Below the pieces are notes generated by a model, which had not been told where the DNA came from, did no database searches, and saw only the letters and a list, made by a program, of their open reading frames with translations. This document shows positions 1,144-61,600 of a DNA stretch of 64,000 bases, piece after piece. The position numbers and the translations under genes were made by a program. The DNA comes from Rhododendron vialii (lineage: Eukaryota; Streptophyta; Magnoliopsida; Ericales; Ericaceae): contig NC_080557.1 of NCBI RefSeq assembly GCF_030253575.1, forward strand, positions 47,723,501 through 47,787,500. The letters run 5' to 3'. The first letter of the stretch is position 1; each line of letters begins with the position of its first letter.

Positions 1144-4100
1144 CTGATAAGCGTATTCATTGTATGGGGGAATGTAACCCATTGGTAAAGATCCGTATAT
1201 AGACGGATGTTGGGCAGAGTTAGCATTGGGCATATTTGAAGCCTCTGTTTGACCTTTCTGAGCCCTCCGAGCTTGCCTTTCTTTCTCTGTATCTGCCCAT
1301 TTGACAACTAAGGGAACACTTGAGCCCTGATACAGAAAAAAACTAAGAATATTTCAGCTTACAAGAGCCTTTAATAAAATTGACTGCCTTCAGTTATATA
1401 TTGTCCGAAACAAACAATAAGGCAACAGACGGCATAAGGGAAAAGTTTTACGCATTTGAAACTCATCAAAATCTACATGGCCTTGGTGTAAATGGAACCT
1501 CAGAATGAGCAGAATATAAATTACGACTTAAGCAAAATTCAACACGTTTCTTAAGAAACCATAACATAGCTGGACTCACTTAAACCTGTTCATGCAGAGT
1601 ATTTTGAAAGTGCACAACATTTTACAATGACAATGGTTCCAGGAATCGAAGGACAAATTGTTAACTTTATGCCCGGCCGAATCCATTCAAGGTACAAACG
1701 TACTAATATCCATGGAGTCTTAGTCTAAAGGCAGACGAAAAGACTCTAAATCATGAGATAGCTTCTCTGAGATGCTACACCGTCTGATAGCCCTTTCAAA
1801 AAGAAGGCTGCATACAAGCCATTTAGTTCCCTCGATGACCTTGATGCTCAAAGTGCACCTGTTTCCAGGGTCCCTCACATGGCTTGCTACAGCATCATAG
1901 ACTGAGAAGACAGTAGGGTCATATATAAACAAGAAGACAGCCTTTGGGTGGCAGAGTCTGATATATTCCAGAAGGTAAACTAAATGATTTTCATATCAAC
2001 AAGTCTGATATCTTCCAGTAGCATCAGATCAGGAATAGGACGAGTTTTGACATCAATACATTCAACATGTAAAGTTGTCCATCGATAGTATAATAAACAC
2101 AAACCTCCATTTTATGCTTCCCACTGAGTGCCTCTATTGCTGCAAGAGCTTGTTCCTTTGTCTCGTACTTCAGAAAAGCACAGCCTGCAACAACGAAGAT
2201 AATCAAGAAAGTTCCGGGATCAATCCATAGCCTAGTTTTTGGTGGTACAATCACAAGACAAAAGGTCAAACCTATAAATTTACCTTTGCTGGTTTGCTGA
2301 GAACCTCTAAGAATTTGGAAGTCTTTAACAGTTCCATATTGAGAAAATAATGCAGAAAGCTCAGCATCTGAAACATTCTTCGGAAGCATACCAACAAAAA
2401 GTTTGTGTTCTGGATCATAGAACATTAAAAAATTATCAGTGAAAACAACTTGAACGAATAACACATGATAGGTCAGTAGATTAGCAAATCAGGATAAGAT
2501 GGAGAATGAGAACTGGGACAGGCACAGTTTGTGATAACGATATTAAGGACGGAGTATTTTACAGAACGCTGAAAATCACATTACACCTAGCCTTTCCAAT
2601 TCTCCATCAGCATACTTCACTTGCAACGGACTAGATGCCTGAATTGGACACAAAAGAACAGGATGCCTTCAAATCAGAGATGTAACCCACAAGTTCGAGT
2701 CCAAAACACAAGCAAGTTTGAAAAAAATAAATCTACTGCCAAGAGTTTCATGCTTAAACAATATGTAAGATCAAGTTTGTATACATTCCAAGGTTCAGAT
2801 CAACTGTATAATTCACAATTATTATCTGGCCACTGGAAGAGAGAACGCGTATAGAATCATTCTTTGAAGCTCTACGGTAAATACTGGCTTGGACAATCTC
2901 TCAATTCAGTATTATGATATTTAACAATCAAGAGCTCATAACCAAACCAAACCGAGCCTTGTGTCCCAAGCAATACAATCAAGAGCTCATATTACCAAAC
3001 ATGGTTAAGCAAATCTGCTGCAAACAAACAAAAAAAGAAAACTTTTTTTCAATCAGCAAGTCAGTGCGTATTGCTTTCCATCAGTTTCTTCCCATTGAGC
3101 ATTAGGAGTTGTAACCTTCTTACATCGATTTTGCAAGGCATAGTGGTGTTGGTGATAAGGGAGTTATGAGATGGTGGAGGTGAAGGAATGGTGCTTTCAT
3201 GATGGTAGGGTGAGGTGGCGATGTGACGGGGTGTAGCGGGCGGGGAAGGGAGGCAGGTGTGAATGCTAGTCTGGGCAATCTCTCACTTCAGTGATGTTTG
3301 AAAAATCAAGAGCTCATATTTACCAAAACTGGTTAAGCAAGTCAGCAGCAACCCCCCAAATAACTTTTTTGATCGGCAAGCCAGTGGCTATTGCTTCCCA
3401 TCAGGCATCAGTTGTCGTCTATGTAGCACGGACACGGATACGGATACGGACACGGGACACGGCAATTCTAAAAAAATGGGGATACGGACACGGCGGGGGA
3501 CACGCCACGTGTATAAATAAATAAAAAATAAATATATTTACATATATATATATAAATATATATATAATTATAAACCATTGTATATGAATAATTTCACAAA
3601 TTGTATAAAAAAATTTCAAAGGAAAAATTACAGTTTAACCCAAATGTTTTGAATAATTTCATATTAACCCCCAAAAATTTTAAAAATATTACAATTTGAC
3701 CCCTAGCCGTGTCCCCAGCCGTGTCCCCTATCAAAAAATAATAAAAATTATTGGACACGCCACGTGGCGTGTCCAATACGTGTCCCCGTGTGTCCCCGTC
3801 GTGTCCCCGTGTCCAATACGTGGACACGGCGCCCTTTTGGAGTGTCGGTGCTACATAGGTTGTCGTAGCCTTCTTACAACAAGTTTGCAAGGAATGGTAG
3901 TGGTGGCGATAGGGGGTAATGGGATGGTGAGGTAAAGAATGGTGATAGGGCTGCGGTCAGCGGTGGACACAAGGGGTGCCTGGGACCCTACACAACTCCA
4001 AATATTTTCACATACTATACTAGTTTTTCAAGTTAATTTAGAAAAATTCTATTGGATTGGCCCCTGCAAATCCCTTGAGTGAAGAGATTTTCTTGAACTT

Positions 4101-11274: not shown

Positions 11275-13356
11275 TAAGAGAAAATTACGGATTTGTTTCA
11301 GTCGTCCATCCAGTACTGCAGTAGTATTATTTGTGGACCTTCTTCCCCACGATTCCAACTCAATTCCGAGGAAGCCAACTCGCAGCTGCGGAAGCTGACC
11401 AAAGCAACTCGCTGCTGCTGAAGCTGACCAAATCCATAAAGAGGGAGGCCGAAATTTCTGGTAATGAAATTGAAAGAGAAAGCTGGTGGTCTCCCATTTA
11501 GAAGAAACATATCCCCACTCCCACAAAGCCGTGTCGCAAGGTTACTAAGAAGACCCTCACCCCTCAAGAAATTTTTCACATCGTCACTAAAGTTTGTGTT
11601 TATTTCAGCCCATCTCTTCCACTGAGGAAAAACGATTTCCTTCGATGTCATGTCATGTGGGTCCCAATAATCCCCAATGACCTTGGTTTCCGAGAGTATT
11701 GGATCAAAAGCTGCGTAAACCAAAGGAGGGCGAGACAGGAGTTAACCATGAAACCCTTTCAACGGCGACGAAGCATTGATGAAACAAAAGCCGTCGACGT
11801 GAAACTCAACTACCCACTAACGCAGACTATCTAAAATCATCTGTTGGACAATAGGATAGTTACAATTCGAAGCGTTTTTGGTTCCCGGATCTTCATCTCC
11901 ACTGGAATGATAATAGGATGAGTTATCAATTTCTCTTAGTGCACAATCATGAGCGGTATGGGTGAAAACCACCTCTACAAGAAGCTCTATCCAATTTGCA
12001 TGCAATTTCTTCACCGTCTCTTTCATTGAACTACTAGTGGCTACCGGATCACCAGAACGCCCAAATAGGTTGATTGGCGAAAAGAAATGAAATGGGAAAT
12101 TAGGCCCCTTCTTCCCATCAAAAGGGAAATCGGTTCCAATAAGATAGCATTCACCCCAAGGTTTTTTAAATGGTTCACCTTCTCAGAAATGCCGAAGAAG
12201 GTCCCTGCAACATTATCGGGTTACCCACTGGACTTGTGCTTAGTAAAACGTCCCAAGTTTACCCAATAAACCACTAGTTTCTCCATTGGTATACAAGGAC
12301 GAATATTACCTCTCCAATTAAAAGGAGGTTCTTTGTCTATTTTTCCAAGACTTTTTGAGTTTAAACCCAAATGAGAATTCTCAATGATTCTAGCATATGA
12401 AATTATGAATCCAAAAGAACATGCTTCGTGAGTAATTTGTCCCCCTTTTCAGTAATTCCCCCCTTGCATCGATATCCATATATAGCTGACAAAGGGCAGT
12501 GCATTGTCCATTGAGATGTGCCAAATGTCACCTGATCAATTGACATAAGGATCAAGGTCGATCTCCAATGCGGTTTGTTCTGCCTTTGTGTCATCATACA
12601 AACACAGAACCACACCTTCTGCACTTCACGAGAAAAGGGAGAAATTGACACAACCATCAGCTGCAAAGCAAAGACCCAATGGAGCAGGATACCCTGAACC
12701 AAGACCAACAGGCACACAGAAGTTTGACTTTCTATGGCTTCTGAGCACTGAGCTTTTTGAATCACCGTCCGGTGGACACTTCAAGAGAAATGAGAGAGAG
12801 AGAATGGCGTTAAACTCACTTCGAAATCCAACTCAACTGCAACCGTACCTAGAGATTTTTGCACAAACGGGGTTTCAACAGTAGTGGATTTGGCATCTGG
12901 AGTTGAACTTTGAAAGTCCAAAGGCATAAAATGCAATGAATCAGATCTGAATATAACCCAACTCATTACCAGCTTATCCTCGCTTCTGTGTATTTGCAGG
13001 GATAACACTTCAACGTGCACGCTGTATTTGACATTATTCTTTCTGACAAGTACCTTCGCATGACCACCAATTTCTGTCCTAAATAGGTAAGCAGCAGGTC
13101 TTTCCACATTTTGGGCAAGAGAAATGCGTGATGTAGCAAATACTCTGAAATTGCGGCAACAAAGAAAAGCTTCTGTTCCTTAGGCTCTAACTTCTCCACA
13201 GACAATGCTTCTTCCCTTGTCCGTTTTCTCTATGCAATGTGTCACTCTTTTCCCACATACACAATGGGCAGGAGCTATAAGTTTAGATGATTCAGCGCCT
13301 CCACAGGCAACAAAATGGGATCGTATCATGACAACGTGTAGAAGAAGAGTTGCCAT
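11275..13356 (-). pseudogene. ISA2: Isoamylase 2 (ISA2, debranching-enzyme subunit) pseudogene, 3'-truncated
   Basis: Read on the minus strand, fragments in all three frames line up in order with plant ISA2. They are: an N-terminus at ATG 13356 (ESSKLIAPAHCV), a carbohydrate-binding-like segment near 12800-13110 (SWVIFRSDSLHFMPLDF), GYRCKGGITEKG near 12450, VKKLHANWIELLVEVVFTHTA at about 11960-12020, WDPHDM..FPQWKRWAEINTNF near 11600-11680, RLCGSGDMF and FSFNFITRNFGLPL near 11450-11540, and RLKQIRNFLL at about 11275. ISA2 forms the ISA1/ISA2 isoamylase that trims amylopectin in plastids and lacks catalytic residues itself. Here there are multiple frameshifts, an early TAG after ILDSLR, and loss of the last quarter. 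ISA2 genes are usually intronless in the coding part, so absence of introns does not by itself prove retroposition. Confidence 0.85.
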
Positions 13357-15365: not shown

Positions 15366-15402
15366 ATAATTATTGTGATAAAATAATTATCACAATAATT
15401 AT
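15366..15402. repeat. Perfect 16-bp-stem palindrome
   Basis: ataattattgtgataa (15366-15381) and its exact reverse complement (15387-15402) are separated by five bases. It is AT-rich and next to a tandem repeat and a long inverted repeat. It could be cruciform-forming; no protein-binding site is recognised. Confidence 0.85.
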
Positions 15403-15419
15403 TTCCCGATAATTATTAC

Positions 15420-15487
15420 AATAATTATTAAGGTTCTTGAATAAGATTTCTCGAATAATTATTAAGGTTCTTGAATAAGATTTCTCG
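15420..15487. repeat. 34-bp perfect tandem duplication
   Basis: Two identical 34-bp units (15420-15453, 15454-15487) contain attaaggttcttgaataag. Partial diverged copies of the same phrase occur near 15290 and 15346, so this looks like a small local repeat array. Confidence 0.85.
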
Positions 15488-15533
15488 ATATTTCCCGTTC
15501 TCTCTCTAAGTTGGAGAATTTGATGGAAGAAGT

Positions 15534-16415
15534 GGGTTCTAGAGTTTTCTAGAGTTTTGTCGAAGAAAACTGCAATCTCCAAGTTTTCTGTCCAGAAATA
15601 TCACTTTCTTTCACACACTCAAACAAGAACCTTGAATTAGGTATTCCTTGAATGGTGTTTATTTGTTTGAGTACTTGAACGAGGTATTCCTTTTCCGAAG
15701 CCAGAATTGGTTTCCAAAACCTTATTGTGTCAAGACAGCTGATACCTTGAAAAGGATGGAACCTTTTCGACTTGTTTTCGGCTTGTTTCAGTATGAAAAT
15801 AGAGTTAGATTTCAATGCATCGAAAGAGAGACTGCAATCCAATTTGCAGTTGATCATAGGTGTCATTGCAATCTTGACATCCTCTTGGTAACGATTGGCA
15901 ACAGGGAAAAAGCTTAAGGCTACTTCTACTGGAATCAGTAACTTGCATCTACTAACATCGCCCCCTGTTACCAAGAACTCAAACAAAAAAATTTCCAAAA
16001 AAATTTTCCTTTGATTTTCAAGCTACTAATTCCAGTCAAAATAGCCTTAAGCTTTTTCCCTGTTGCCAATTGTTACCAAGAGGATGTCAAGATTGCAATG
16101 ACACCTATTGTCAACTGCAAATTGGATTGCAATCTCTCTTTCGATGCATTGAACTCTGTTTTCATACTAAACACAAGTCGAAAAGGTTCGATCCTTTTCA
16201 AGGTATCAGCATCTTGACACAGTAAGGTTTTGGAAACCAGTTCTGGCTTCGGAAAAGGAATACCTCGTTCAAGTACTCAAACAAACAAACAAACGCCATT
16301 CAAGGAATACCTAATTCAAGGTTCTTGTTTGAGTATGTGAAAGAAAGTGATATTCTGGGACAGAAAACTTGGAGATTGCAGTTTTCTTCGACAAAACTCT
16401 AAAACTCTAGAACCC
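15534..16415. repeat. Long inverted repeat, arms about 400 bp, loop about 73 bp
   Basis: Left arm 15534-15945 and right arm 16019-16415 are reverse complements with about 90% identity by eye and a few small indels. Landmarks in mirror order: gggttctagagttt, ttgtcgaagaaaactgcaat, caagaaccttgaattagg, ggtattccttttccgaagcc, gcatcgaaagagaga, tcttgacatcctcttggtaac, ggcaacagggaaaaagctta. The loop is 15946-16018. A 149-codon minus-strand frame through the left arm is not recognised as a protein family. The origin (foldback element or inverted duplication) is unknown. Confidence 0.9.
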
Positions 16416-16672
16416 AGAACCAACTAATGACTTCGCCACAGCGATCACTTCTGGAGAAAGAAATCGACCGCCTCCTTGGCGACCGGGATGACTTGAAGAG
16501 GGAATACACTCCAAGAATAACCTACCCCAGAAGATTAAAAGAACAAGGTCCAATGATTGTTAATCAAGCTCAAGTGGATAATATCCAGCAGATTGACAGG
16601 CAACCAACGGCCTTCGACCACTGGACATCATTCAACCGTTAACGTCCAGTTCCAAGGTGATTTCTTCGACCA

Positions 16673-18184
16673 CTGGCCTTTTCCATTTTGGCAATCCCTC
16701 AAGTTGAAAATATTTTTTTTTTTTTTCGCTAAGCACTCAGGTTGTAATTCTTGTCAACAGTAAAACAGCTTGCTTGGCCACAACTACCAAGCTATAATTG
16801 TATCGCACTACTGGTTTGCCAATAGCAATGGATTCCAACATATTCCCCGTAAGCTATGTGTTTGTGTGTGTGTGCACCAAGCGCTTTATGTTATTTGACT
16901 AATGAAACATTCAGACTTAACCAATAAAAGTGAAAGAAAGAGAATTAAAGACGCAAACACAATGTTGAGTAACTCACCCTGATTTAATCCGAGGTAAAGG
17001 AGGCCGGTATGCTTGAGTGCTTCAATCACATTTTATATAACACTGAATGAGTGAGTCCCTAGGACCAGGCTGCAAAAAGAATGCAGGGCCTTCAAAAACG
17101 TAGAAAGAAATACCACAAGCTGTATTAATAAGTACAGACCTGCAGTGCAATTCTTATGACTAGATGCAACAGAGCCCACCACAAAGTCCTCACTACGCAC
17201 ACAAGGAGCGCCTAGAACATCCCCTCCCACTATACTTTGAAGTTCACAGGACGTTAACTCCTTGGAACACGCCGTCTCAGTTTCATGCACTCCTTCATCA
17301 TCACTGTCAAGTACTACTTCTTCTTTGTAGTCTTCGAACTTCTGAGGTGCCATGTCATCAACAGAATCTGGAATATCTAGTAGCTCAGTGTCAACGTTCT
17401 CCAATTGAGTTTCTTCAGGCGGACTTTCAAGCGCAACAGTATCACCAAAAGGTTCAGTACTTCGATACTCATCGGCTTCATTGCCAGTCCAAACTTTGAG
17501 TACATGGTCTGATTTGGAGACCGATGAGAATTGTATTGAGATTGGTTTGATAATTACCAAAATGCATGTAGGATGACTCCATATGGCAGCAAACAACTCA
17601 ATATCTACACAAAACTGGACTTGCAACGGAAATTGAGTCAGTCAATTATGTCAACGCTTCACGTAGCCTTCTAAAATTGTGCTAGTTTTAGCTTCTAAAC
17701 AAAAACTTGCAGGTTCCCTTCCTCCGTTCCTCGGGGCTTTCTCAGGTCTCACCCTATTGTACCAATGATATTACATACAATAATGCAAGTGCCTTAACTG
17801 ACTGGACTCGAAGAGTGTTGCTCATTGCTTTCATTTTCTTAAAATTTTGACAAAAGTGAGCATGACAGGGCTTAAGAACCAATACCACTCAATTGCAAAT
17901 GCACCCTTTCTCGCTGCAGGTCCTTTTTGGAAAAGGTCAAATTGGACAAACGTTTTGTACTAAATGTAATGTACTGATTACTCATAGCGCATGCCGATTC
18001 TGCCTTCGGCATACCCTTCTGCACAATTTCGGCCTCTTAGCCTCTCATGTGTTTCACTCAAAGGGATAATCTTTGCACACGCTGCTTATACAATTTGTGT
18101 TACGTACTAGTGCTCTGCCATTAAGAAGATTATGCGAAGTGTATTCATCGGGGAATAGTTCAACAGGATAATGCATCAAAATGT
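16673..18184 (-). pseudogene. Chimeric pseudogene: BRCT-gene exons joined to a Tubby-like exon
   Basis: Minus-strand order 5' to 3'. (a) 18184-17943 matches 29164-29003, upstream of the BRCT gene. (b) About 17940-17090 matches 25440-24620, including the DEG-rich second coding exon (EEVVLDSDDEGVHETETACS). (c) About 17087-16849 matches 62395-62632, the second exon and following intron of the Tubby-like gene (PGPRDSLIQCF..), with a 4-base insertion that shifts the frame. (d) About 16846-16673 matches the BRCT exon near 21145-21284 (IDEKNYILRDA region), broken by a T-rich insertion. The 3.5-kb stretch holding the BRCT promoter and first exon is absent, as is the 2.2-kb central exon. The AG before the second exon in the intact gene is GG here. 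It is probably non-functional, though transcription is possible. Confidence 0.8.
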
Positions 18185-18682
18185 TGGGTCCCAAGTCCCT
18201 GCAGTGAAGGGAATTCACTGCAAACAGCAGCGCCTCAAAACGACGCCGTTTTGGGGCGTAACTGGAGTGCTAGCTTAGCTCATGTAGTCACGTGATACCC
18301 TCTGACTAAACACACTCTCTCTCTCTCTCTCTCCCCTCTGTTTTTTTCTTTTTTTTTCGGTAACTATCTCTCCTCTGTCTTCCTAAAATCATTTTCTTCT
18401 TCAAGTTTCTTCCTCCACCTACAAGAAGTACGTGAGCTGCAACAACAATCAAAGAGGAACCAGAGCAATTTGAGTAAACTTTTGATAAATTATCAGAAGA
18501 AGATGATTACGGTATAACAAAATAATATGATAAGAATTTGATCTGTCTTTTTGGGATCCCGTGTTGAATGTAACCAAATAATTAGAGACTTGTTTTCTCT
18601 TTTGGTGTTGGACTTGATATTTGATTGGGTTTATAATGGTTCTTGTGATTCAGTCTAGCTTAGTAATTGATTGGGTTTATAT

Positions 18683-18725
<43 letters not shown>

Positions 18726-19643
18726 CTTTTTGGGTAAGTAAAGAAGACATACGATGCACTTGGTTCTCTACCTTGTTGATCCGTGTTGCCAAATTTATCC
18801 TTTATTAATTTCCTAGCTTAATGTAACATAAAGAGATTGGGTTTATCATACCAACGAATGAGGCAGATCACCTCGTTTACACATGCGCCAATGCATTTCA
18901 GTTGGTGGGCAAATCCAGAGTTATAATCCTAGAGAAGTGTCCCGTGTTTGCTTCTTGTATTTAACTCGTCTGGAAAAATTTGAGCGGACAATTGAAAACT
19001 ATACTTCAAAAAAAAAATTCAGTTTTAAAGCTGTTAAAACTTTTGTAACCTAGATTTCGAAATTTGGCTGTTCAACTAGAAATAAGTAAGATCCAACGCT
19101 TGGGTTGGATTTGGAAACTGTCTGCATAATGGGGCACCATTTTGGACACCATTCGCTGATCTCAAGTGAGCCAATGATACTGTTAGTAGACTAGTGCCAG
19201 AAACATTAATGAACAAGGGAGTCACGGTTAAAGAACTAATTAATGAGTACAGACATCATTTTGCAGGCCCAGTATTTCAGTCAAACCCGATGGGGTCTGG
19301 GTGAGACTAATTTGGAAGCTTGATCGCAACGATCAGGTAAACCTCACCAAGCTACCCTTCGGGTTGTGCTGTGCAGTGTGCACACATTGGAAGTGATGAG
19401 CCTTACACAGCACAATCAACAAGAAAATCAATACTGCTATATATCAGCAAGTAAATTACTACTAAATTATATTCACGCTGATTAATTGATACGGGGTGGC
19501 AATCCATGATCCATAGTCAAAATCTTCAGAGGTCACATTTGACTGCATAGTGTTTATGTACAACAAATTAGCCTGATCGGGGAAACTCGTCGCTATCTTC
19601 CCTTTTAGATCCTAACGCTGCATCCCCAAAAAAAAAAAAAACA
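18185..19643. other. Intergenic stretch with two CT microsatellites
   Basis: It contains a caaaacgacgccgttttg near-palindrome at about 18237-18254, CT runs at 18312-18332 and 18685-18722, and leader-like CT-rich sequence. No open reading frame follows, so no gene is called. The BRCT gene's stop lies at its right end. Confidence 0.5.
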
Positions 19644-22600
19644 CTATTGACACATGGCTACAGGTAGAGACCATTCTCCACTTTTCTTCAGGCCGATGCG
19701 AGAGCAGTTACTATTGACATGGTTTTTGAAGAGCCGGTGCCTGTTACGGGAAAACAAAGCATGCGTAAGTAACACTAGCATTCAAATTGCAAGAGATTTG
19801 GATTTTGTAATAGTAATAGGAAATAAGAATGCCAAAGCCCAACTGAAGCATACAAGCTCAATCCATGATACATGGTTCCAATTTGCCACCTCAATGACCC
19901 AGATATATCAAATTCAACATTGGATGAACCAAATGGTTATCCATATATTCCAAGTTTATTTATCTGGAGACTACAATGAGACCCACATGAAAAATCTTTC
20001 GTCTAATGGATCAAAGTAAGCTGCAAAGGATTTGCTATAAAACCAGGGTACTCTGGATAGCGTTTCTATGATAGTCTCATAGTTTTAGGTACTTAAACAG
20101 GCTTCAGCAATTATGATTGAGCCGAACTTAACCGACTTGAATGATAAATCCAAATGGTGCATGAATAGAACGAAAGACAAGGAGAGGCTCTGTCTCCTCT
20201 ATGCATATTAGCAGATACCATTTGGTTTTCTAGCAAAATAGGGTTAGGTGCTAAAGGAGGAAAGAAAGTTAAAAACAATGTTTGAATTGCTGTGCTGACC
20301 TCTCAAACTCTAGTTTCTGTGTAACTATCCCATTAAGAAGAAGCTCTGAACTGTAAACAGCTGCTCCTGCATGCGTATGAGTCCAAATTGGTGGCTAGCA
20401 TGATTCAAGAAGTCATGATTATGTAAAGTAAAGAACCATTGGATTTAATATGTACCTTTATCAAGGAATGGTGCACATAGTTCATAGTCCTGTTCACAAG
20501 AAAGAATTAATACATCTTTTGGGATCATTTTATTCATCATTGCAGTTTCTTGTATTCTATCGACGACCTGAAAGAATCAATAAAAGTCAAAACTTCATGA
20601 AATGTAACTCATCCTTTGAGTCAGGAAGTATGAAAAGGCATGTGATAAATTACAATTTCAAATCCAAGAACTACAGTTGAACTCTTCATTCAAAGTTCCC
20701 TTTTCATATTGTAACATTATCTTCCATAAACGGCAACTTTTCGAGTGTTTCTCATAGAAAGAGCCACTAAAACAGAAGTCGTCTTGCAAATCAATGTCAA
20801 TAGTTGAACCAGATAATAAGCTAACTGGACCAAATTAGTATCTTAAACAGATGACACCAGAAAAGTGTTAAACAAACTTCTATCCTTGGATTCAACAGCA
20901 TTAGCAGAATTACGTACCTGCCCATGCACTGCTTTGACCAAGCTCAAAATCAACTCTTTACCAGGTTTTATGTTTGAAGAAACAATGACTCTAAGATCCT
21001 GCTGGGAAGCAGCAAACAGTATTATGCACACTGAAGTTTGGTAAAGCAATTCTATACAAACACGGATGCAAGAATTGGGCATAGCTGATTAATACCTTTA
21101 GAAGGGGATGCTGTCTAGCATGGGCCAATGAAACTGGCATGCTAAAGCCAATTTCCTTTTCCTTTTTGGCATCCCTCAGGATGTAATTCTTCTCATCAAT
21201 AAAACATCTAGCTTGTCCACAACTATCAAGCCATAATTGTGTCACCACTGGCTTACCAAGAGCAATGGATTCCAACATATTCCTGGTCCGAACAAATCTA
21301 TCAGCTACAAAATGTGTAGCATCTGAACAACATGATGCAATGGAGCTACCTAGGCGTGCCAAAATCTGTGAGAAAAAAAATACCATCAGTGAAGGTACAA
21401 TCCTAAGCTGACAATTGGCTGATTTGGGAGCAGAAAAGAGACAAAAGAAACCTTTTTCTGCTGTTTAATAATGTCATTATCCAAGTTGTTGCTGAACAAG
21501 ACACGAACATTTGCCATGTCTCTTCGTTGTCTCAAATCTTTTGCTCTAATTTTTGGTAGTGATCCAGAAAACCCTAAGCTATTAAGCTCTTTCATCAGGG
21601 GAAATCTTGAAATCTTTCTAGTTAACAATTGCTTGCCCTTCTCGTTGCCGTTGAGAATTGATGGTGCCAGATCTACGCCTTCAGAAAAGTTGACAGGGCT
21701 GGGACACTTGGAAAGAGAGAACTCAGCATTTCCACGTGATCTTATGTCTAACTCAATGCTTTCATTTGCACCATCAGCAGAGGATACAAGAACAACACGA
21801 TCCAGTTTTCCAGATTTTTCCTCACTTTTTTCTACTGGTGAAGGTAGAATCCGATGAGCACATGCTGGTGATCGTCGCTTTCTCCTTACGTAAAAGCTGA
21901 AACAACTGATTTCAGAGTTCCCTTGTGACTTCTTATGACTTTCAGCAGAACCACAATTGGTTTCCGAGTCCACTTGTGACTTTTTATGGATATCCATAAA
22001 ATCCTTGTCACCCTTTTCCCCCTTAACCACTGTGGATGGGAGACAGATGTCACTTACTCCATTTGAATGGCATGGCAAATTTCTGTGTGTTCTTTTCCCT
22101 TTGCAATAGCCCCATTCATTTGACGTCAAATGGCTTCCTACATCAAGCTCATCTTCTGCAGGTTTACTCACTTCGACGTCTTTAGCTTTCTTAGATGTAC
22201 GCAAACCTATCTTGGGCCGTTTTCCTCCAAGACTTGACACCTGGAATGTATCAGCATTTTGACCATTCTTTTTCCTTTTCTTGAGTACACCGGCTTCCAT
22301 AACATCACTCATCCTTTGCTCAGAACTTTTTGTTGGATTCTTGGCCTCTTCCAACGGGTGTACTAATGACCGACTCCTATTCTGGTGAGCAAGGGCTGAA
22401 AACATCCTACGTTCCACAGAAGTTGATGAAACTAAATTATTATCAACTTTGTTGATGTTGTCTCTCTCTGTAACTTTTTCTTCCTTCCTTCGTTCAATTA
22501 GCTTAAATGAACTTCTGCGTGAATGGTTCTCCACATTAGAAGGGTTCCCAGCATTGGGAGGGCTTTCACCCAATGACTTCCTCCTCTTCACTTTGTTGAC

Positions 22601-25600
22601 TTCTGGTAACTCAGGATCCAGCTCTTCTCGACTTCTTTTGTCTTTTCGAGATGAACGAATTATTTTTCCACTCAACTTCTTGGAAGGCTTATTTTTTGGC
22701 TTCAGTTTTCTTGCAGTGACTCCTGAATTAGAGCATTTCCCCGTTGAACATTTTGAAGAATCTTCAACCATGTTTTCTGGATCTTGAGGAGTAGAATGAA
22801 CATTAGAGTTGGGAGGGGGTGCATAAAATAAGGCTTCCATAGCTTCAGCTGCCATTTGAGTGTCAAACCCAACATCAAATGTATCCGGGACATCCCTTCT
22901 GAGGCCACCAGCTTCTAACTGCTGCTCTGATGCTTCTGCATTGAGCTGATCATCCATCTCCTTGACAAACTTCATACCGGAAGCTTCAAGAACATCACCA
23001 ACCTCCTCAGAATTTAGCACTATTAAACTCGAATTGGAAGAATAAGCATCTATCATTTCACCCTTAAATTTTTCTTTGCACTGATCCCTTTGTTTCATCT
23101 GACTTTGGACATTTAGATTTGTATCACTCAGGCACCTAGCCACAGATGTTGCCTCAGGGCCTTCACCATTTAAGATCAAATTCTTTGTGTCTTTCAGACG
23201 ATCGCCTTCTCCACCATCAATTTCATTGGCATCCCATTCAAATGTTCCTGATATACCAAATGTGGTTCCAAGAATGGCCCTCCTGGCCAAAATTTGAGGC
23301 CCTTTTGCACATAACGCAGGAGGTGATTTCTGCGTTCTTGTCTTTTTTGGTGCAACTTCCTTTGACAAATTTACTTTGTTAAATGACAGGTAATGATCCA
23401 CGAAACTCAGGGCATTGGCTTGTGATGAATCTCCAGGTTCCTCATATTCGTTGTATCTTTTCTCTGCAGACTCATGCTCCGAAGTACGCAGCGTGCTATC
23501 TTTTTGGATAGAACTAGGCCCGATACTACTTACATTCTCAGACATGCTGCCTCCACCTAAGCCAGCACACTGAACTGTCTGCGGGCAGACAGAATTAACC
23601 CGCCTTCTTTTGTATACTGCAGAGAAGTTAGATTATTAGACAATGGACCGCGATAACATCTATCAGTTTCACATGATATGAGAGCAAAAGATAGTGAATG
23701 GGAACTAAGTTTTAAAAGTATCAAAAAGCGCTGATCTCACACAATTTGGTAGTGTTGCAATGTTGGCATAAAATTGGACAAATAGATAGATCCTCTTCTC
23801 TGAGAGAGAAGAAAAGAATCAACAATTTTTTGCTAATATGTCATCCGAAAAAAGAGATTGGATCTAGAGTCCGAGACTCTGAGGAGCAATTGCTTATTCA
23901 AATGGGAAAATGGCAAAAAGCTCCCGCAGCTAAACATAAGAAACTAGTTTAAATATGATCGCTGCAACAGTTTGTGTACAAAACTGCAAAATTTGTGAAG
24001 GGATATGTATGTTTCTTGTCCAAACCTCCTAGAAAATGGCACTGTGATGATGAACACAAATAATGGCCTTCAGATATACCCAATGTCTCATGTTTCAATC
24101 TAATAAGAATGCTACACAGTCATTTATGAAGTAAAAACAGAAACGGTCAAATTATCTGCAATTGACCTCATAGTGTCCTCCTGCCTTCAGGCTCTGAGCA
24201 GGATGTTGATAGTGTTTAGAAACACAGCCATATTGGTTGGCATGGCGAAAATTGTTCAAAGATATGACACAACAAAAAGGCTGGCTCACAATGAAATTTT
24301 GCAAGATTTGGTTCACTACTGAGCAAAGAGCCTAGCTCAGACCACAGAGTGAAACAACAGAATTCTACTTCAAAAACGTAAAAAGAAATACCACAAGCTG
24401 TACTAATAAGTGCGGACCTGCAATGCAATTCTTATGACTAGATGCAGGCTCTGAGCAGGATGTTGATAATGTTTAGAAACACAGCCATATTGGTTGGCAT
24501 GGCGAAAATTGTTCAAAGATATGACACAACAAAAAGGCTGGCTCACAATGAAATTTTGCAAGATTTGGTCCACTACTGAGCAAAGAGCCTAGCTCAGACC
24601 ACAGAGTGAAACAACAGAATTCTACTTCAAAAACGTAAAAAGAAATACCACAAGCTGTACTAATAAGTGCGGACCTGCTGTGCAATTCTTATGACTAGAT
24701 GCAACAGAGCCCACCACAAAGTCCTCACTACGCGCACAAGGAGCTTCTAGAACATCCCCTCCCACTATTCTTTGAAGTTCACCGGAAGTTAACTCCTTGG
24801 AACACGCTGTCTCAGTTTCATGCACTCCTTCATCATCACTGTCAAGTACTACTTCTTCTTTGTAGTCTTCTAACATCTGAGTTGCCATGTCATCGACAGA
24901 ATCTGGAATAACTAGTAGCTCAGTGTCAATGTTCTCCAATTGAGTTCCTTCAGGGGGACTTTCAAGCGCAACAGTATCACCAAAAGGTTCAGTACTTCGA
25001 TACTCATTGCCAGTCCAAACTTTGAGTATATGGTCTGATTTAGAGACTGATGAGAATTGTACTAAGATTGGTTTGATAATTACCAAAATGCATGTAGGAT
25101 GACTCCATATGGCAGAAAACAACTCAATATCCACACAAAACTGGACTTGCAACGCAAATTGAGTCAGTCAATTATCTCAATGCTTCACGTAGCCATTAAA
25201 AATTGTGATAGTTTTAGCTTCTAAACAAAACTTGCAGGTTCCCTTCCTCGGGGCTTTCTCAAGTCTCACCATATTGTAGCAATGATATTACATACAATAA
25301 TGCAAGTGCCTGAACTGACTGGATTCAAAGAGTGTTGCTCATTCCTTTCATTTTCATGAATTTTGACAAAGGTGGGCCATGAAAGGACTTAAGAATCAAT
25401 AGCACTCAATTGCAAATGCAACCTTCCTTGATTCGGGTCCTTTTTGTTTCACAAAATTAAGTACGGAAAAAGAAACAAAAATGCTAACAGGTTTGCCAAT
25501 AACAATGCCAAGTCCTTCCATTGTAGACCACTTCTACAAATCTTCGACACTTTCATCCATTCTTTCCAACAGCTGGAGGGAAAAGGGTCAAGATTCTATT

Positions 25601-26562
25601 AATTGAGCATTTCTTTTCTGTTTTCTTCAACCACAGTTCTGACATGATTCCACTGCTATCAAATAAGAGAAACAAAAATTTCAACGATGCAAGATGCTTC
25701 CATTGTACATCCCTTCTATGACTTCTCTACCCTACCCATCCTATGATTCTTTAAACAACCAAAAGGAAAAGGTCAAATTTTGTTAATTGACCTCTTTGGT
25801 TCTCATTTTTCTTAAGGGCTCCCTATTAATTCTCTCATTTCTAGAATTCGGTTCCAAAAACAGGGTGGCTCTACTATATCACGAGGCTGTTCAAAGAATC
25901 CACTAAAAATTGGGTTTTTCACATATAATTTTATTTTTCTCCAATATTGCTGGCACTGAATCATTCATACCTAGTCAAAGTAAATGAAAGCCCATTTAAA
26001 CTTATGAGTAAGTAGATAACATAGCTCATCAAACCAAAATAAAATAAGCCAACAAATTTTCAATCAAAAGAAATATGTGTATTGGGAAAGTCTACAATAC
26101 ATACCCCTTAAAAGGGTGTACCATATGCATCTATTTTATGGTTCATTCATAACATTTTAGTGTATTTCGTAACTTTTGTTCTAAAATTCATAACCTTTTA
26201 GCAGTACGATTCGTAACATTTTCGTTATGATTCATAACATTTTAGTGTATCTCGTAACCTTTATATAGAGCTTTGTAAATAAAATTCTTTTACATTTTTT
26301 TGTCACGGTTGAACTAAATTCCTAGAGACACCCCAGAAACTAACTCCACTTCTAACTTCTAAGCCATTGGAAAACGAAATCATTCGATTTCCAAAGAAGT
26401 CCCAATTTGTGCAGATTCAATCCAATCAATACACAACTAAAATTCAACTAGAAAATCTTCGAAACAGTCGAGAGAGGCAGAGAGTTAAATATGCGGATAT
26501 CTATTACGGTTACCAGATTGAGTATCAAACGTCTGAGTCTCAATACCACGATCATCATCCAT
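19644..26562 (-). CDS. Tandem-BRCT-domain protein (MDC1/PTIP-like, nuclear)
   Basis: Coding exons on the minus strand: 26514-26562 (ATG 26562), 24675-25046, 21452-23616, 21096-21365, 20918-20998, 20456-20567, 20300-20366 and 19644-19740 (TAG 19644-19646). All boundaries are GT-AG, phases match throughout, and the total of 3213 nt gives 1070 aa. The N-terminus is short and acidic (ETQTFDTQS). An acidic segment with DSDDEG follows. The middle (about 140-840) is long, Ser/Lys-rich and predicted disordered, with basic KRRK patches. The C-terminus has two BRCT repeats: about 840-950 (FVRTRNMLESIALGKPVVT, LWLDSC) and about 953-1045 (VIVSSNIKPGKELILSLV, YSSELLLNGIV). Tandem BRCT units bind phosphoserine partners in DNA-damage responses. 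The closest remembered relative is Arabidopsis At4g03130. The last exon keeps HRLF but then diverges from the KRTRST-type ending of relatives. The assigned starts of exons 1 and 2 are inferred. Confidence 0.85.
24188..24701. repeat. 257-bp perfect-spacing tandem duplication over a splice donor
   Basis: Units 24188-24444 and 24445-24701 are nearly identical (caggctctgagcagg ... cttatgactagatg). On the minus strand the unit contains the last ~27 nt of the BRCT gene's second coding exon, its GT donor (at 24674) and the intron start. The second donor copy therefore lies 257 bp downstream inside the intron (about 24417). Confidence 0.9.
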
Positions 26563-26756
26563 TTGAAATCGCTTTGATTGTTGCTAAAACGTAGATCCTT
26601 CACCTGATCCGTGCCACGGAAACGACATACGAGCAAAGAAAATAGGCCAAACAACAGCATTAAAACCGTTACAATCGCAGATTTCGACGAAACGATTCGT
26701 ACTAGTAGTAATTAACATACCAAGAGAAGATTAATCGAGAGAGATTGGAAATTACC

Positions 26757-26853
26757 TCATCGGAATATCAACTGTTGCGCGCGAGGGGTAGTGAGATTGA
26801 AGATGGAACGGTTCTAGGCTTTCGAATGATTTTGTACGTATATATATATATGT
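26757..26853 (-). promoter_or_regulatory. Probable promoter and untranslated first exon of the BRCT gene
   Basis: A TATA-like run (tatatatatata, about 26839-26851) lies on the minus strand upstream of a possible leader exon. That exon ends in gatgag before a GTAATT donor at about 26756. Translation then starts in the next exon at 26562. The arrangement is inferred from sequence only. Confidence 0.4.
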
Positions 26854-26997
26854 GAGGATTTGGTGGAATTTCGAAAAGTAGAGGGGGAACACTGTTTATT
26901 ATGCCAGAAGATTTTGGAGGGAACGGAAAAGAGTTCCAAATTTGTTTATGGAGAAACAGAGTATTTTATCTTAATTATGTGGCTCTGAAGACAAATT

Positions 26998-27069
26998 GGG
27001 CATTTGGTCTAGTGGTATGATTCTCGCTTAGGGTGCGAGAGGTCCCGAGTTCAATTCTCGGAATGCCCC
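26998..27069 (+). tRNA. tRNA-Pro (AGG anticodon)
   Basis: 72-nt cloverleaf with acceptor stem gggcatt/aatgccc, D-loop tctagtggtat, anticodon stem tctcgc/gcgaga with AGG in the loop, variable gtc region and T-arm ccgag-ttcaatt-ctcgg. Box A (tggtctagtgg) and box B (gagttcaattc) are present. The T-loop has caa where cga is usual. A run of seven or more T residues from about 27081 is a pol III terminator. The gene is intronless and lies divergently, about 150 bp from the BRCT promoter. Confidence 0.95.
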
Positions 27070-27080
27070 GATATACTGTA

Positions 27081-27088
27081 ATTTTTTT
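27081..27088 (+). terminator. Pol III T-run terminator of tRNA-Pro
   Basis: An uninterrupted T tract about 12 bases past the tRNA 3' end, as expected for RNA polymerase III. Confidence 0.7.
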
Positions 27089-27129
27089 CCCATCCTGTTC
27101 AGCTCAAGACTTAACGAGCCATTCAGCCT

Positions 27130-27475
27130 AATAAGCCAAATGATTTATTTTTTCGTCCTTATTCTTATCTTTTTGTCGTATTTGTTAGTTTTTCGTTAAT
27201 TTTGTGTGGATTATTTGCTTCATCATGATTAGAAGAATTTAAAAAGTAAAAAATTATGATCGAAACCTAAATTTTTTGAATAAAGACAAAAATAAGCCAA
27301 TTCTTTCTTTCGCCTTTATTGAAAAATCGATTTCGATCGTAATTTTTTACTTTTTAGATTCCTCTCGTCATGATGAAGCAATAATCCACAAAAAGTTTAC
27401 AAAAAACTAACAAAAACGAAAAATTTGATTATGGACTTATTAGGTCGAATAAGCTATTTGGCTTCTTATTCCGTT
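27130..27475. repeat. Foldback element, about 345 bp
   Basis: The left part (aagccaaatgattta ... tttgttagttttt ... ggattatttgcttcatcatga ... aaaaagtaaaaaatta) is mirrored by the right part ending taagctatttggcttctt. The arms are near 150 bp with diverged ends. The same internal words occur in the larger inverted repeat at 40012-41541, which suggests one family. Confidence 0.65.
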
Positions 27476-27891
27476 AAGATTCTTATTTTTTTAGTACTAC
27501 TTATTTTTCGTTTTACGAGACAGGTCATTCTCGCATAATACATGACATAATTTAAAAAATAAGTACTTATTTCTCTTATCGGAACGGAACCTTTATTTGA
27601 TTTGCCAAAATTGAGTACTACACAACTCTTACCGGGTCTTAAAACTATGTTCAATCTACACAATTTGCTCGGAATTGTAATTGGTACTTTTGGAAATAAT
27701 GAACTCCATTAGACATTGTTTTAAATTTGAAAGGGAAATGACGGGAAAATAATACATCTATTTGTTCCAAGTTTTGGTACACGGTGCATTCGTTAGCATG
27801 GGCCATTCAAAAAATGTTTAGGGTGCTTGTAAGTTGATTTGAACAACTTTGAAGGACACTGTTTGTCGATTTATTAAGGTACTCCCTCCGT

Positions 27892-28416
27892 CCAAATTTG
27901 TGCGTCTAATTTTTAAAATGTATTGTGACTTTTTTTTAGGGAACACAATGATTACACCTAAGAGGTTTTAACTTTTTCAATATTTACCCTTTACTTTTTT
28001 TTTAAATAGTTACTTTATCTCGAAAATGGGAAGCAAAATGAAAACTTGATCCACTCAAAAGTCAATTGGACAAATATTTTGGAACAATTATTTGTACCAC
28101 TATATTGGACAAATATTACTACCTCCATTCAAAAGTCTAATTTTTAAAATGTACCGTAACTTTTTTTTGAGAAACACAATGATTACACCTAAAAAGTTTT
28201 ACTTTTCAATATTTAGCCTTTACTTTTTTTTTAAATAGTTACTTTATCTTGAAAATGGTAAGCAAAATGGAAACTTGATTCATTCAAAAGTCAATTGGAC
28301 AAATATTTTGGAACACTTATGACTTATCTGTACCACTATATTAGACAAATACTATTACCTACATTCAAAAGTCAATTGGACTTAAAAGTGGACAAACAAA
28401 TCAGAACGGAGGGGAG
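27892..28416. mobile_element. Stowaway-like MITE with internal duplication, 525 bp
   Basis: TA flanks (27890-27891, 28417-28418) border ctccctccgtccaaattt and aatcagaacggaggggag. Internally a block with tctaatttttaaaatgta..gtaactttttttt and a following gtcaattggacaaatattttgg occurs twice, so the element carries a tandem duplication or a nested relative. Confidence 0.6.
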
Positions 28417-29312
28417 TAGTATTTGTACCACTATATTGGTATAATAGGAAGTACTATTACCAACGGTGCCATTATGTGGGACCTAAGTCAAAAAATAAAT
28501 AAATAAAGCGTCTTTCAAAAATATTTCAAACTACTAAAAAATGCAAGAACAAAATGGAGAGCGGATAGTGTTACTGGAGAGTCGTGCGACGTTGTTTGAG
28601 ACTCTAATGCGGGTTCAAGTTGCAAGAAAGGCCTATGGAACTGAGGCACCCAAGACTAAGCCGGAGCTATGTGCTTTGTGCATTGCACTGATAGCGTTTC
28701 ATTTTTTGTGGTTGAGTGCACAAGGCCAGTGGGCAGGGGAGAAAAACCCTGGGTGAGGCAGCTCAATAAGAAGAACCCTTTACAACAAGGCCAAGGGTCT
28801 GATCTACCTGTATTGCTTGTGTCACCAATTGCAGATAGTCTAGGCCTAAATCAAGCTTCTCAGTACACCCAACATTAACATCAGTAAAACAACTGACCAC
28901 ATTGAGTATTTTGTAGAGTAGCAGTACTTTGTTAACCATCCACTACAAGCAAAAGATAGAAAAAGAGCAAAAGCAGCAACACTGACTCTAACAGTAGCAC
29001 AAATGGACTAGTAAGTTTTGTTCTAAATGTACTGATTAACTCATAGCACATGCCAATTTCGCCTTCGACATACCCTTCTGTACAATTTCATCCTCCGCCA
29101 TTAACAAGATTATGCGAAGTGTATTCATCAAGGAATAGTTCAACAGGATAATGCATCAAAATGTCACGCTGTGCTATAACGTTGATGACAAGGCATGAAA
29201 CTAACATAACAGAACATAGAGTTTCATTGATAGCAAGTTGTACCACTATTAGGTTTTTATAGTTACAAAGTACTGCCAGGTCATTATGGAAGTCATCCTA
29301 TTCCATGAAGAC
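28417..29312. other. Intergenic stretch between tRNA/MITE and the ARF gene
   Basis: No gene recognised. The piece 29003-29164 is duplicated in the chimeric pseudogene at 17943-18184. Short frames near 28541-28878 have no recognisable similarity. Confidence 0.5.
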
Positions 29313-29476: not shown

Positions 29477-32400
29477 TTAAGATGATGGCGGGTTCGATGA
29501 GCCCATATCCAACTTATCAACATCTTCCTTTGGACAGACAAACATCTTGCATACCATGGTCCGGAATTCCCTGCATCAGTATCAACATAAATTCTTAGTC
29601 CATTGTAATGAGGGCAGCCCTAAGACCAACAAATTGCATAACGAAAAACACTTGAAGCAGGTGAGTGATTTGGTACTTAACGGCCAAGGGTAATCTCCAA
29701 TCAGCATCATGTCCCCTTCACCATCTATGTAGGTTACGTACCAACCACTGCTCCCATCGATCAATGTCCCTTTGAACTCAAACATCTGGTCAAGCTCACG
29801 AATGAGTTCACCATAACCATCAAAACGTGCCAGGTCAACTGATCTTCCAAGAGTAGTTCCATACTTCAGCACCTGCAAGGGAAATATTTACAATATCTCA
29901 AAATCTCCCCAACCAAACAACGTTATTATATACTTTTTTGAACTCGTTAACCAAACAACTTATGTATTGGACTTTGGTTTCACATCAATATAACTAGGAT
30001 GATCTTTTGCTAAAACAATAAACAATAAGCTGCCTACTTTGAGACATTTACCATGATAAACAAACTTTCCCAAGCAAGTCAACCCAAAACTACAGGCAGG
30101 GATTCTTTCTCAAACTGTAGTTTACGAAACAACATCTAAATGAGCATGAAAGTGCAATTACCTTTGTACAGCTTCGGTTAGCACTGGGACAACAGTTCCT
30201 GCATTGTTTATATGGATTGTTGCCAGAAATACCCTTAGATGGCTCGGAGACCTGGCTAGGACAAGGACTACAAAGTTCTCGTGAAGAAAGCATTTGATTT
30301 GAAGGGAGCGCCATAGGACTACTAGATATATTCACTCCAAAAAGCATGCACTTGCCATTTGGTTGGCCCATTGGAGCTCCAATCTCACCTTTCTCTTCAG
30401 GAGCTGTGCATTCCTGTGAGGCTGAACTGGTAAAGCTGACTTTTGGAAAAGACAAGCTTCCACTCGCTTCAGTACAGTTGTGGGCCCCACAGGAGGTAAA
30501 TGTTGGAGGCTGATAGTTAGCAATCATTGGATGAGGAGGATTTCCACCAGGAATTGCTATTGTGCTGCCATGAGAGTGAGAAAATGGGTCACGCATCCGA
30601 ACAGGATTTGGTTGGGGTAGCAGCAGTTGCTGCCCTGATGCACCCAGTTCAAAAGCACCCATGGCTCTGCTTTCTTGACCTTGCAAGACCCCAAATTGTC
30701 TTTTCTGTACACAATTCGCTGGACTCTTCAAGAAGCCTTTGAATACAATGAACAAGAAAACTAAGAGTTACCGTCACCAATCTTTCACACAAATGCAGCA
30801 TTTTTTGGAGACAAAAAGTTACTGCAAACTGGATATGTAGCCCACAACAGGCAATTAAAAGCAACACCACTGGTTTATGACGCCATTTCAGGAGGAAAAA
30901 AAAGGAGGTTACAACTGTGTCAACAAAACCCTTTTTTACCGTTGGATCAAGAGTGCTGATGGTGATGTGCAAACTCTTCCAAAGCCATTTCTCGTGTCAA
31001 ATTTGACACCAGAAATTACGATTTGCCCAAGGAGTGGAGTAGCCCTTTTGCTCATTTCTACCCAATTTTGGCAATGGCTAGGAATTTGCCTAACTAATGG
31101 AGAGCTCTAAGATAATTTATACTTACCATTCCCTCCAAAAACGGGAAATCCAGAAGTAGATTGGTCCAAAGGTCGTGCCCTTTTACGATTGGGAAAAAGG
31201 GAACCTAACTTCTTCTTCTTCACAACAGTAGGTTCAATGCTCCAAGGAGAAACCCTTTGAGGGCGAGCTGACGTCATGGATAGGACATCCCATTCCACCT
31301 AAAAAAACATATATGTAAGTAGCAATACATCACTGGAACTTAAGAAGACATTCTGAATGCAACTACCTCAAGACATCTCCACTCCGAATCATCCCACCTG
31401 ATAGGATCGATACTATCAATACCAACAACAGTACCTGCAATTCTGGTTAATACATGTACATTCGGGCTTCAGCTAAAAAAAGAAGAGCCAAGAAATGACA
31501 TGAAGTAAGCATAAATCATTTGCATTAACTTTTTGTTCTACTTCCATTATGACACCATTCAATCAAAGGAAGCTAACAAATTTCAATTTTTCATCACTAT
31601 TGCAAGTTATTATGCTGAAAAAACTGAAATTACGTTACAATTAATTCCCTATTCCTAACCCGAGAAAACTGGGGATACAACTAGTTATTGTAAAGAACGA
31701 TGCCCCATAAACACTTTACCTGGAAGGCGTAGGTTCAGGATATTCTTCACCTTCAAACTGCATTCTGAATCTCGTTCCAATTGAAAAGTCAATTTCAGCT
31801 GACTTCATGTATTGATCATGAGGAATAATAAATTCAACAGGACTTGTCCTGCACAAGATCCACAAGTCATCTTTTGCAAAAGACTGATTACACCTAAAAC
31901 CTAAATGTCCAATGAAATAAAGTAGACCACAGACCCTAGCTTATTGTCCTCCATTTAACACTTCATATAGACAATGTAGTATTAGCTTACCAAGGATGGT
32001 AATAAACAGTAAACATGGTTCCAGTAGTCATGGCATGGAAGGCACTGGCAAGTATGCCATGTTGCATGCTGTGACCAGATAGGACAGATGCTGACGTACT
32101 TGCTTGTGATTTTGTTGCACGGCGGACCCCAACAAAAAGTTCTCCATTTTCTCCTCTATCAAAAAAATATACTCAACTATTAATGTGAAAGGAAAAACTC
32201 TGTGAAACCCTTGATAAAGTTCTAAAAACAATTGCAAGGGAGACAAAGAAGAAAAAGGAGGAGGAAGAAAAGAAAGACCATGTAACCAACCAAGCAAAAC
32301 TGCATGTTGTGCAACAGTACTAGTAAAATTAGTCTTAAAAAATGTAACAAGCCATGCTCTCACATTAGTCCATACAAGCACTGGGAAATAGGGTATAAAA

Positions 32401-60940: not shown

Positions 60941-61600
60941 CAATATATATATTGTTATGCTCTGAAAACCGGATAAGACCTTTATTCCCCACTCCAACTG
61001 ATCGCGACCAAACCCACACAGTGAGAAAAACGAAACCCTAATCTCCATTACCTTTTCCTACCCACTTAGCTCAACAATCGAGCTCTTATGGAAATGGGTT
61101 CCAAACCCTAATCTTGAAAAAATGTGAATTTGTCCTCCTCATCTTCTTCTAATCACTGACCTGTTGATCTACAGCTTCCACCCACTGAGAAAGCCGTTTG
61201 ATTATGGTTAAGTGGATTTCTCATCCATCTTTTTTGGGGCTTCTTTTTGCTATGGATATTGGGGTTATGTTTGTAGAACTTGAGATTGTGCTTGTTTAAT
61301 TGTCTTAGGATCTGTGAGTTTGTTTGTATTTGTTGGCTTGATATGTCGCTTGGTCTGTTGTATATGCCCTGGTTGGTTAGAAGGATCTTTTTTTGATTGT
61401 CTGGTCTGATTATTCCATCAAAGGTTGCACCTTTGGATCTGGAAGCTTCTGGATATTTTCAATCATTGGGTATTAGCTTCTATTTTTTGAGAAATATGTA
61501 AATTAGCATCCACTTGAAAGTGGGATTGACAAGGTTGGAAGGTTTGCGGTGTTGTTGATGTATCGTGTATGTATTTTTTATGTATAGATAGATTGTTAAG
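60941..61600 (+). promoter_or_regulatory. TLP promoter and leader with two telo-boxes
   Basis: A TATA-like atatatatatt lies at about 60944-60953. Two aaaccctaa telo-box motifs lie at 61033-61041 and 61103-61111, a pair often found in promoters or leaders of plant housekeeping genes. An upstream ATG at 61088 opens a seven-codon frame (MEMGSKP, stop) in the likely leader. A leader intron before the ATG at 61601 is possible but not proven. Confidence 0.45.

Follow-up and report, generated by a model that had tools for sequence, protein, structure and literature searches.

What process has placed fragments of a BRCT-domain gene and of an unrelated Tubby-like gene side by side in one short segment of DNA? 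We addressed this question for positions 16,677–18,184 of the window, by which we mean the whole 64-kb stretch analysed (47,723,501–47,787,500 of contig C1, in a 532.6-Mb assembly of 13 contigs); positions are those of the window unless a contig or locus is named. The window looks like plant DNA, with intron-bearing genes of plant families, for example AUX/IAA. A preliminary description had taken the segment for exons shuffled from two genes of this window, either through capture by a Helitron or Pack-MULE or through repair synthesis. We lean towards reading it as what remains of an additional BRCT locus copy, which would have been patched with Tubby DNA during repair and struck at its edge by a transposon. 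A literature search found no paper on AACGACGCCGTTTT. As genome debris the mosaic is of an ordinary kind, and its history is instructive.

Structure of the mosaic

The BRCT gene, which is the closest relative of block B2 of the mosaic, lies on the minus strand at 19,675–26,700, as judged from Pfam hits and from segments conserved in other copies. An ORF at 20,991–21,464 (minus strand) encodes an RTT107-type BRCT domain, and the limits of exon 2, read from the sequence, are 25,146–24,676. The Tubby-like F-box gene has a Tub domain in a plus-strand ORF at 62,320–62,559 and, barely over the Pfam cut-off, an F-box (PF00646) in an ORF at 61,592–62,032; its donor segment is 62,387–62,629 on the plus strand. 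Of the Pfam matches, RTT107_BRCT_5 and Tub are each over cut-off. AUX/IAA was found in an ORF at 29,582–29,887 on the minus strand.

Comparison of the window with itself revealed five matching blocks at 16,716–18,184 (identity 82–94%, E 6e-18 to 0). Their counterparts are the BRCT locus (21,157–29,164) and exon 2 of the Tubby-like gene with its flanking intron (62,387–62,629), and on this comparison the mosaic of BRCT and Tubby-like DNA is real, as had been described. From left to right, block B1 (16,677–16,849, minus strand) is part of a BRCT-domain exon (~21,148–21,283). The self-comparison aligned 16,716–16,846 with 21,157–21,283 (plus orientation, 82%, E 5e-31), and by eye the junction sequence extends the block left to ~16,677, beyond an insertion of ~35–40 bp. 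This left piece is supported by a homeolog in which the equivalent of 16,677–16,702 adjoins the same exon. Block B1 contains the insertion and a poly-T run at ~16,705–16,735, and a 2-bp insertion breaks its frame. At the left edge, the 13-bp sequence CTTCGACCACTGG (16,664–16,676, plus strand) exactly repeats 16,612–16,624, with the partner copy 52 bp away; such a repeat arose in 5 of 5000 Markov-1 resamplings of 16,417–16,690, and it is possibly locally templated filler or slippage.

Block T (16,850–17,092, minus strand) corresponds to 62,629–62,387 in minus orientation, and the resemblance to the Tubby-like gene noted before holds at 87% identity and E 4e-83. It holds exon 2, flanked by the last part of intron 1 (3' splice site included) and the first part of intron 2; a stop codon and an insertion of 4 bp disrupt the exon. 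Three bases, CTT at 17,090–17,092, are common to blocks T and B2 at their junction. Block B2 (17,090–17,929, minus strand; 24,625–25,446 in plus orientation, 91%, E 0) carries BRCT exon 2 at 17,620–17,141, with its frame open, and adjoining intron DNA. The next collinear fragment, at 17,929–17,943 (minus strand), consists of 15 bp of BRCT intron 1 (25,765–25,779); one resampling in 5000 gave a 15-mer match of this kind.

The two remaining blocks, both on the minus strand, are intergenic. Block C1 (17,952–18,036) matches 29,015–29,095 (plus orientation, 83%, E 6e-18), and block C2 (18,113–18,184) matches 29,093–29,164 in the self-comparison (plus orientation, 94%, E 1e-26). Between them lies a 76-bp insert (18,037–18,112): its best other match in the window is 14 bp, and there was no match among those listed in the genome search. 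Parent bases 29,093–29,095 (CTC) are present on either side of it. The preliminary description had called this end of the mosaic BRCT upstream DNA. It does lie upstream of the BRCT gene, but at least 2 kb from the BRCT start and in the 3' flank of the preceding AUX/IAA gene, ~0.3 kb beyond that gene's stop as we read the sequence (29.0–29.16 kb).

The abrupt junctions placed earlier at ~16,847 and 17,088 are correct to within ~3 bases, and the mosaic was rightly described as a DNA-level product that carries its introns along and was not retrotransposed. With exon limits taken from our reading of the sequence, introns are retained, together with splice sites and intergenic DNA. A processed retrocopy, or a retrocopy of a fusion transcript, would find some encouragement in the poly-T run close to the left edge, but the introns, the unspliced splice sites and the intergenic DNA leave it with practically no probability. 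The joins could in principle reflect an assembly error or a chimeric read. Nothing was found that favours this. Against it, the window contains no N, block B1 has a separate history (see below), and each block has substitutions of its own relative to its relative (5.6–16% per block, 4.9% for exon 2 alone); these are scattered through the blocks, as mis-joined parent reads would not show, and we regard such an artefact as scarcely credible.

Copies elsewhere in the genome and the lineage of block B1

Our genome searches scored the best candidates only, so match counts are lower bounds. One of the 14 matches listed for the whole mosaic covers it, and none of the 14 is a further copy with its boundaries; the check for other copies with the same outer boundaries, which had been put forward with the capture proposal, thus came out negative among these matches. 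Among the matches listed for block T, one besides itself is close, the local Tubby gene; the next of 36 is at C4:40,823,704, with 75% identity. For block B2, the listed matches other than the gene itself include 79–104 bp in the BRCT gene's own tandem repeat, 55–70 bp on contig C2 and 89 bp at 75% in L009. A search with the region of this block returned at least 81 matches, mostly to a repeat in BRCT intron 1.

Both repeats are features of the BRCT gene in their own right. The tandem duplication (24,188–24,446 and 24,445–24,703; 257 bp, 98.5% identical) is recent and contains the end of exon 2 and intron 2 DNA, and the chimera breakpoint at 24,625 falls within it. The intron 1 repeat (26,084–26,266) is a highly repeated element of ~180 bp, with copies of up to 95% identity on many contigs.

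Copies of block B1 occur at least on contig C2 (7.166, 7.087 and 1.365 Mb), contig C9 (14.66 Mb) and contig C4 (12.80 and 40.72 Mb). Two of them, at C4:40.72 Mb and C2:1.365 Mb, have the appearance of old homeologs (77–80% identity), and the former lies ~100 kb from a Tubby relative. We compared the two homeologous regions (C4:40,711,501–40,725,500 and C2:1,358,501–1,371,500) with the locus. The first 12 matches in each consisted of the BRCT exon of block B1, 32 bp of exon 2 (contig C2) and matches that were of low complexity or shorter than 30 bp; neither the Tubby block nor the intergenic blocks appeared among these first 12 matches, and the intergenic DNA does not align, so that an exact empty site did not emerge from this comparison.

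Truncation and rearrangement have affected both BRCT copies near 7 Mb on contig C2, where exon 2 adjoins the equivalent of 21,627. Loci L009 (2,193–4,865) and L010 (2,528–4,965) are rearranged BRCT copies ~79 kb apart on contig C2, which have the same scrambled order with exon-1 DNA placed behind later exons. In L010, a TIR element of ~725 bp (3,035–3,759) with an 8-bp target duplication, ATTACAAC, lies inside the BRCT pseudogene copy. A 4-kb stretch that is 97% identical between contigs C9 and C4 (L011 1,847–5,896; L012 1,967–5,998) holds a ~180-bp piece of BRCT exon with abrupt ends, and may be a gene-capturing transposon. Short matches to the BRCT gene, ~90–107 bp in length, were also found at C1:34,475,106–34,475,196 (L029, 86%) and C12:30,411,914–30,412,020 (L030, 81%).

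A maximum-likelihood tree of block B1 with 8 sequences grouped the chimera with the fragments on contigs C2, C9 and C4 and left the window gene outside. Support for this grouping was 95 by ultrafast bootstrap on the whole alignment and 99 by 200 bootstraps on the trimmed one. When two homeologs in agreement served as outgroups and C2_7165 as representative, 5 informative sites favour the grouping and 0 each favour the two alternatives; a single outgroup gives 4, 0 and 1. Rooting succeeded for block B1 only, over ~113 columns (16,738–16,850). This phylogenetic placement assigns 16,738–16,850 to a second BRCT lineage that has the dispersed BRCT fragments as its sister group. The nearest sequence in the window is therefore not simply its parent, and for most of the mosaic a decayed paralogue is for this reason a better reading than exon shuffling. 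The statement that two genes of this window had supplied the segment accordingly survives for the Tubby piece, whose one close listed match is local, but not for block B1. More generally, the locus warns against simply taking the closest match within a window for the parent, since one block here is of another lineage.

Edges of the mosaic and tests for capture by mobile elements

To the left, the mosaic is neighboured by an inverted repeat at 15,533–16,416, made of two ~400-bp arms (15,533–15,945 and 16,019–16,416, 90% identical) and a 73-bp spacer. In the genome search, the flank at 15,400–16,673 matched nothing beyond itself and the inverted repeat that it contains, and Pfam gave no match for three ORFs in the left flank (15,549–16,642). 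We considered a shared age for the mosaic and the inverted repeat and rejected it: the arms differ by a K2P distance of 0.056 vs 0.082–0.183 for four chimera blocks and 0.058 for block C2, and divergence is heterogeneous both with the arms included (p 0.008) and within the chimera blocks by themselves (p 0.044).

To the right, homology of the mosaic to its relative, which runs to 29,164, ends at a Mutator-like terminus at 18,186. In the genome search, 18,186–18,674 and 18,694–18,769 (plus strand) matched a multicopy TIR element, with at least 58 matches from the best 40 of 55 candidates, including the query and two parent blocks. Six relatives are among the matches listed, at 81–91% identity over ~380–530 bp. 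Two relatives have both ends (L051, 942 bp; L052, 1,040 bp), with TIRs of ~140–165 bp that start GGATCCCGAGTCCC and 9-bp target duplications (CCCAAGTTT in L051, CTTAGGTCG in L052). Mutator-like elements are recognised by their long TIRs and 9-bp duplications, and on these features of its two relatives we class 18,186–18,769 as a Mutator-like element. The window copy begins with the outer left terminus at 18,186 and is truncated on the right, without the element's right end or right TIR. From the position of the outer terminus it follows that the chimera lies outside the element, and from the loss of the right end that the other flank of the target has been lost.

We scanned for 12-bp TIRs of at least 80% identity that were flanked by target duplications of 5 or 8–11 bp, with one mismatch allowed. 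No combination of TIR and target duplication enclosed the chimera, and ten single-base shuffles gave 0 or 1 each; a wider scan of 15,400–16,740 against 18,150–19,700 (duplications of 8–11 bp) likewise gave 0, with 1, 0 and 0 in three shuffles. As a positive control, the scan recovered the ~725-bp TIR insert in L010, although duplications were assessed jointly with TIRs and a more decayed one could escape.

Helitrons begin with 5' TC and end in a 3' hairpin and CTRR, followed by a host T. Scanning for such a 3' end between 15,400 and 20,000, we found no hairpin and CTRR at the edges of the chimera followed by such a T, the right-edge site being followed by C or A. The candidate 3' end, a hairpin at 18,231–18,258 with CTAG (to 18,273), was rejected since C rather than T comes next and the hairpin lies inside the Mutator-like TIR. 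A minus-strand site of hairpin and CTRR at 19,079 is followed by T, but is 0.9 kb outside the chimera.

Capture by a Pack-MULE, another TIR element or a Helitron would readily yield a mosaic of gene fragments that retain their introns; a Mutator-like terminus does touch the right edge, and a piece of BRCT exon also sits in the 4-kb stretch duplicated on contigs C9 and C4. Yet no TIRs with a target duplication enclose the mosaic in a scan that recovers the L010 insert, the terminus at 18,186 is the start of an element running rightward, away from the chimera, and the Helitron-like hairpin belongs to that outward-facing element. The mosaic is moreover represented by one copy among the genome matches listed, and its closest donors are local. 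These sequence features do not support a Pack-MULE or Helitron origin, which the preliminary description had proposed, and we judge capture very unlikely.

Divergence and coding state

Divergence from the window gene is uneven. Block B1 differs at 14 of 107 sites and exon 2 of block B2 at 23 of 471 (p 0.004). Within the intron DNA of block B2, the outer part differs at 25 of 120 sites and the inner part at 11 of 180 (p 0.0002, for a split that was chosen once the counts were known). This step would be explained if the gene had later converted the middle of an old copy; mutagenic repair or misalignment could contribute. The outer intron end of block B2 (24 of 109 sites) and L009, the contig-C2 copy (22 of 93), are equally distant from the gene. 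In unrooted three-way counts there, the chimera agrees with the gene at 11 sites and with L009 at 7, and the gene with L009 at 12. These counts do not place the chimera with the contig-C2 copy, which tells against a relic of a second locus copy.

A 9-bp stretch of exon 2 reads GAAGCCGAT in the chimera and GAAGCCAAC in both contig-C2 copies, and is absent from the gene. We rejected it as a novelty common to the chimera and these copies, since a homeolog seems to retain it; it is thus probably ancestral and lost from the gene, and has no bearing on the grouping.

For the exon 2 pair, dN/dS is 0.47 over 157 codons (p 0.11 vs 1), consistent with a constrained gene compared with a neutral copy. Under neutrality, the probability that no stop arises in exon 2 is 0.66, 0.44 or 0.28 for 11, 23 or 37 changes. 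Selection on the open exon 2 frame was set aside on these grounds, an intact frame being not improbable by chance. An open frame also crosses the junction of BRCT and Tubby DNA (ORF 17,033–17,641, minus strand), which chance allows. The mosaic is probably a relic without a function of its own.

BRCT exon 2 and Tubby exon 2 are both in sense orientation, with an open frame over the first junction and splice-like signals retained. Conceivably, the Mutator-like TIR at 18,186 could act as an outward minus-strand promoter of an RNA that joins the two exons, from which small RNAs would co-tune both neighbouring genes; we consider this conjecture highly improbable.

A proposed history of the locus

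The history that we favour would begin with the BRCT locus present twice, the extra copy lying immediately downstream of the surviving gene, spanning at least 21.15–29.16 kb and including the gene and upstream intergenic DNA. After duplication of the locus, the extra copy would have had a history in common with the fragments on contigs C2, C9 and C4, as the tree indicates for block B1 only. It would then have lost ~3.3, 0.3 and 3.2 kb internally, as measured on today's gene and judged from the collinearity of what remains. To close the 3.3-kb gap, repair would have copied ~243 bp of the Tubby gene, which lies 45 kb away, and joined them on one side through 3-bp microhomology, in the manner of break-repair filler DNA. 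Later, the middle of the largest block would have been homogenised with the gene by gene conversion, as the divergence step suggests. Finally, a Mutator-like element would have inserted at 18,186 and been truncated in turn, setting the right edge; the terminus and family of this element and its truncation are observed.

The BRCT-derived blocks keep the order and orientation of the locus, as by chance 2 of the 48 signed orders of three blocks would do. Collinear blocks with introns, deletions and no sign of constraint are what an unprocessed relic of a duplicate gene presents, with exon 2 still open. Block T sits at the 3.3-kb gap (21,283–24,625) with CTT common at one side, as filler DNA would. 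Break-repair patching, which the preliminary description had named among its possibilities, is what best accounts for the Tubby piece.

A fair rival is a single patchwork repair, in which a break beside an old BRCT fragment (block B1) was healed by synthesis that switched templates, copying the Tubby segment and then the BRCT parts in the order B2, intron-1 scrap, C1 and C2. The closest donors are all within 45 kb on the same contig, microhomology and short fillers are present, and block B1, the one block assigned to the other lineage, diverges unlike block B2. Repair-mediated duplications at close range are documented in vertebrates (PMC2671141). Template switching need not, however, yield blocks collinear with the locus, and the uneven divergence inside block B2 also counts against one event; we hold this history possible but rather doubtful.

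Comparison with known systems

A decayed duplicate gene, or unprocessed pseudogene, with gene conversion is a known kind of sequence. The mosaic resembles it in being collinear, intron-bearing, marked by deletions and near the surviving gene, with patchy similarity; unlike it, the mosaic holds one fragment of an unrelated neighbouring gene. Helitron capture, too, leaves mosaics of gene fragments, and a hairpin followed by CTAG is nearby, but this hairpin is part of another element's TIR, the CTAG lacks a following T and no second copy is among the matches listed.

With Pack-MULEs and transduplicated fragments, as treated in a review (PMC13317346), the mosaic shares the assembly of gene fragments beside a Mutator-like TIR. 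It differs from the Pack-MULEs described there in lying outside the element, with no enclosing TIR pair, with its closest donors local and with no second copy among the matches listed.

Plant break repair offers a closer parallel. According to PMC3289645, inserts at repaired breaks measured 127–677 bp in tobacco (n = 6) and 80–534 bp in Arabidopsis (n = 4) and came with short local fillers, and PMC2686159 describes a gene fusion with filler DNA at maize p2/p1. A deletion, a short foreign insert at the junction and microhomology are common to these examples and to the mosaic. Unlike the plant fillers in these papers, the 243-bp insert of the mosaic was drawn from a site 45 kb distant, and its junctions, those of an old event, have been blurred by substitutions. 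If the Tubby patch could be dated in relatives, plants would have one more case in which a few hundred bases of filler came from tens of kilobases off. On the reading favoured here, what had appeared as exon shuffling or gene capture resolves, under whole-genome search, into a decayed paralogue, a repair patch and the landing of a transposon.

Two minor features of the window were also recorded. A tRNA-Pro (AGG) gene lies at 26,998–27,069, immediately upstream of the BRCT gene, and on the minus strand at 11,817–12,182 Pfam gave a weak match, below cut-off, to ferredoxin-dependent bilin reductase.
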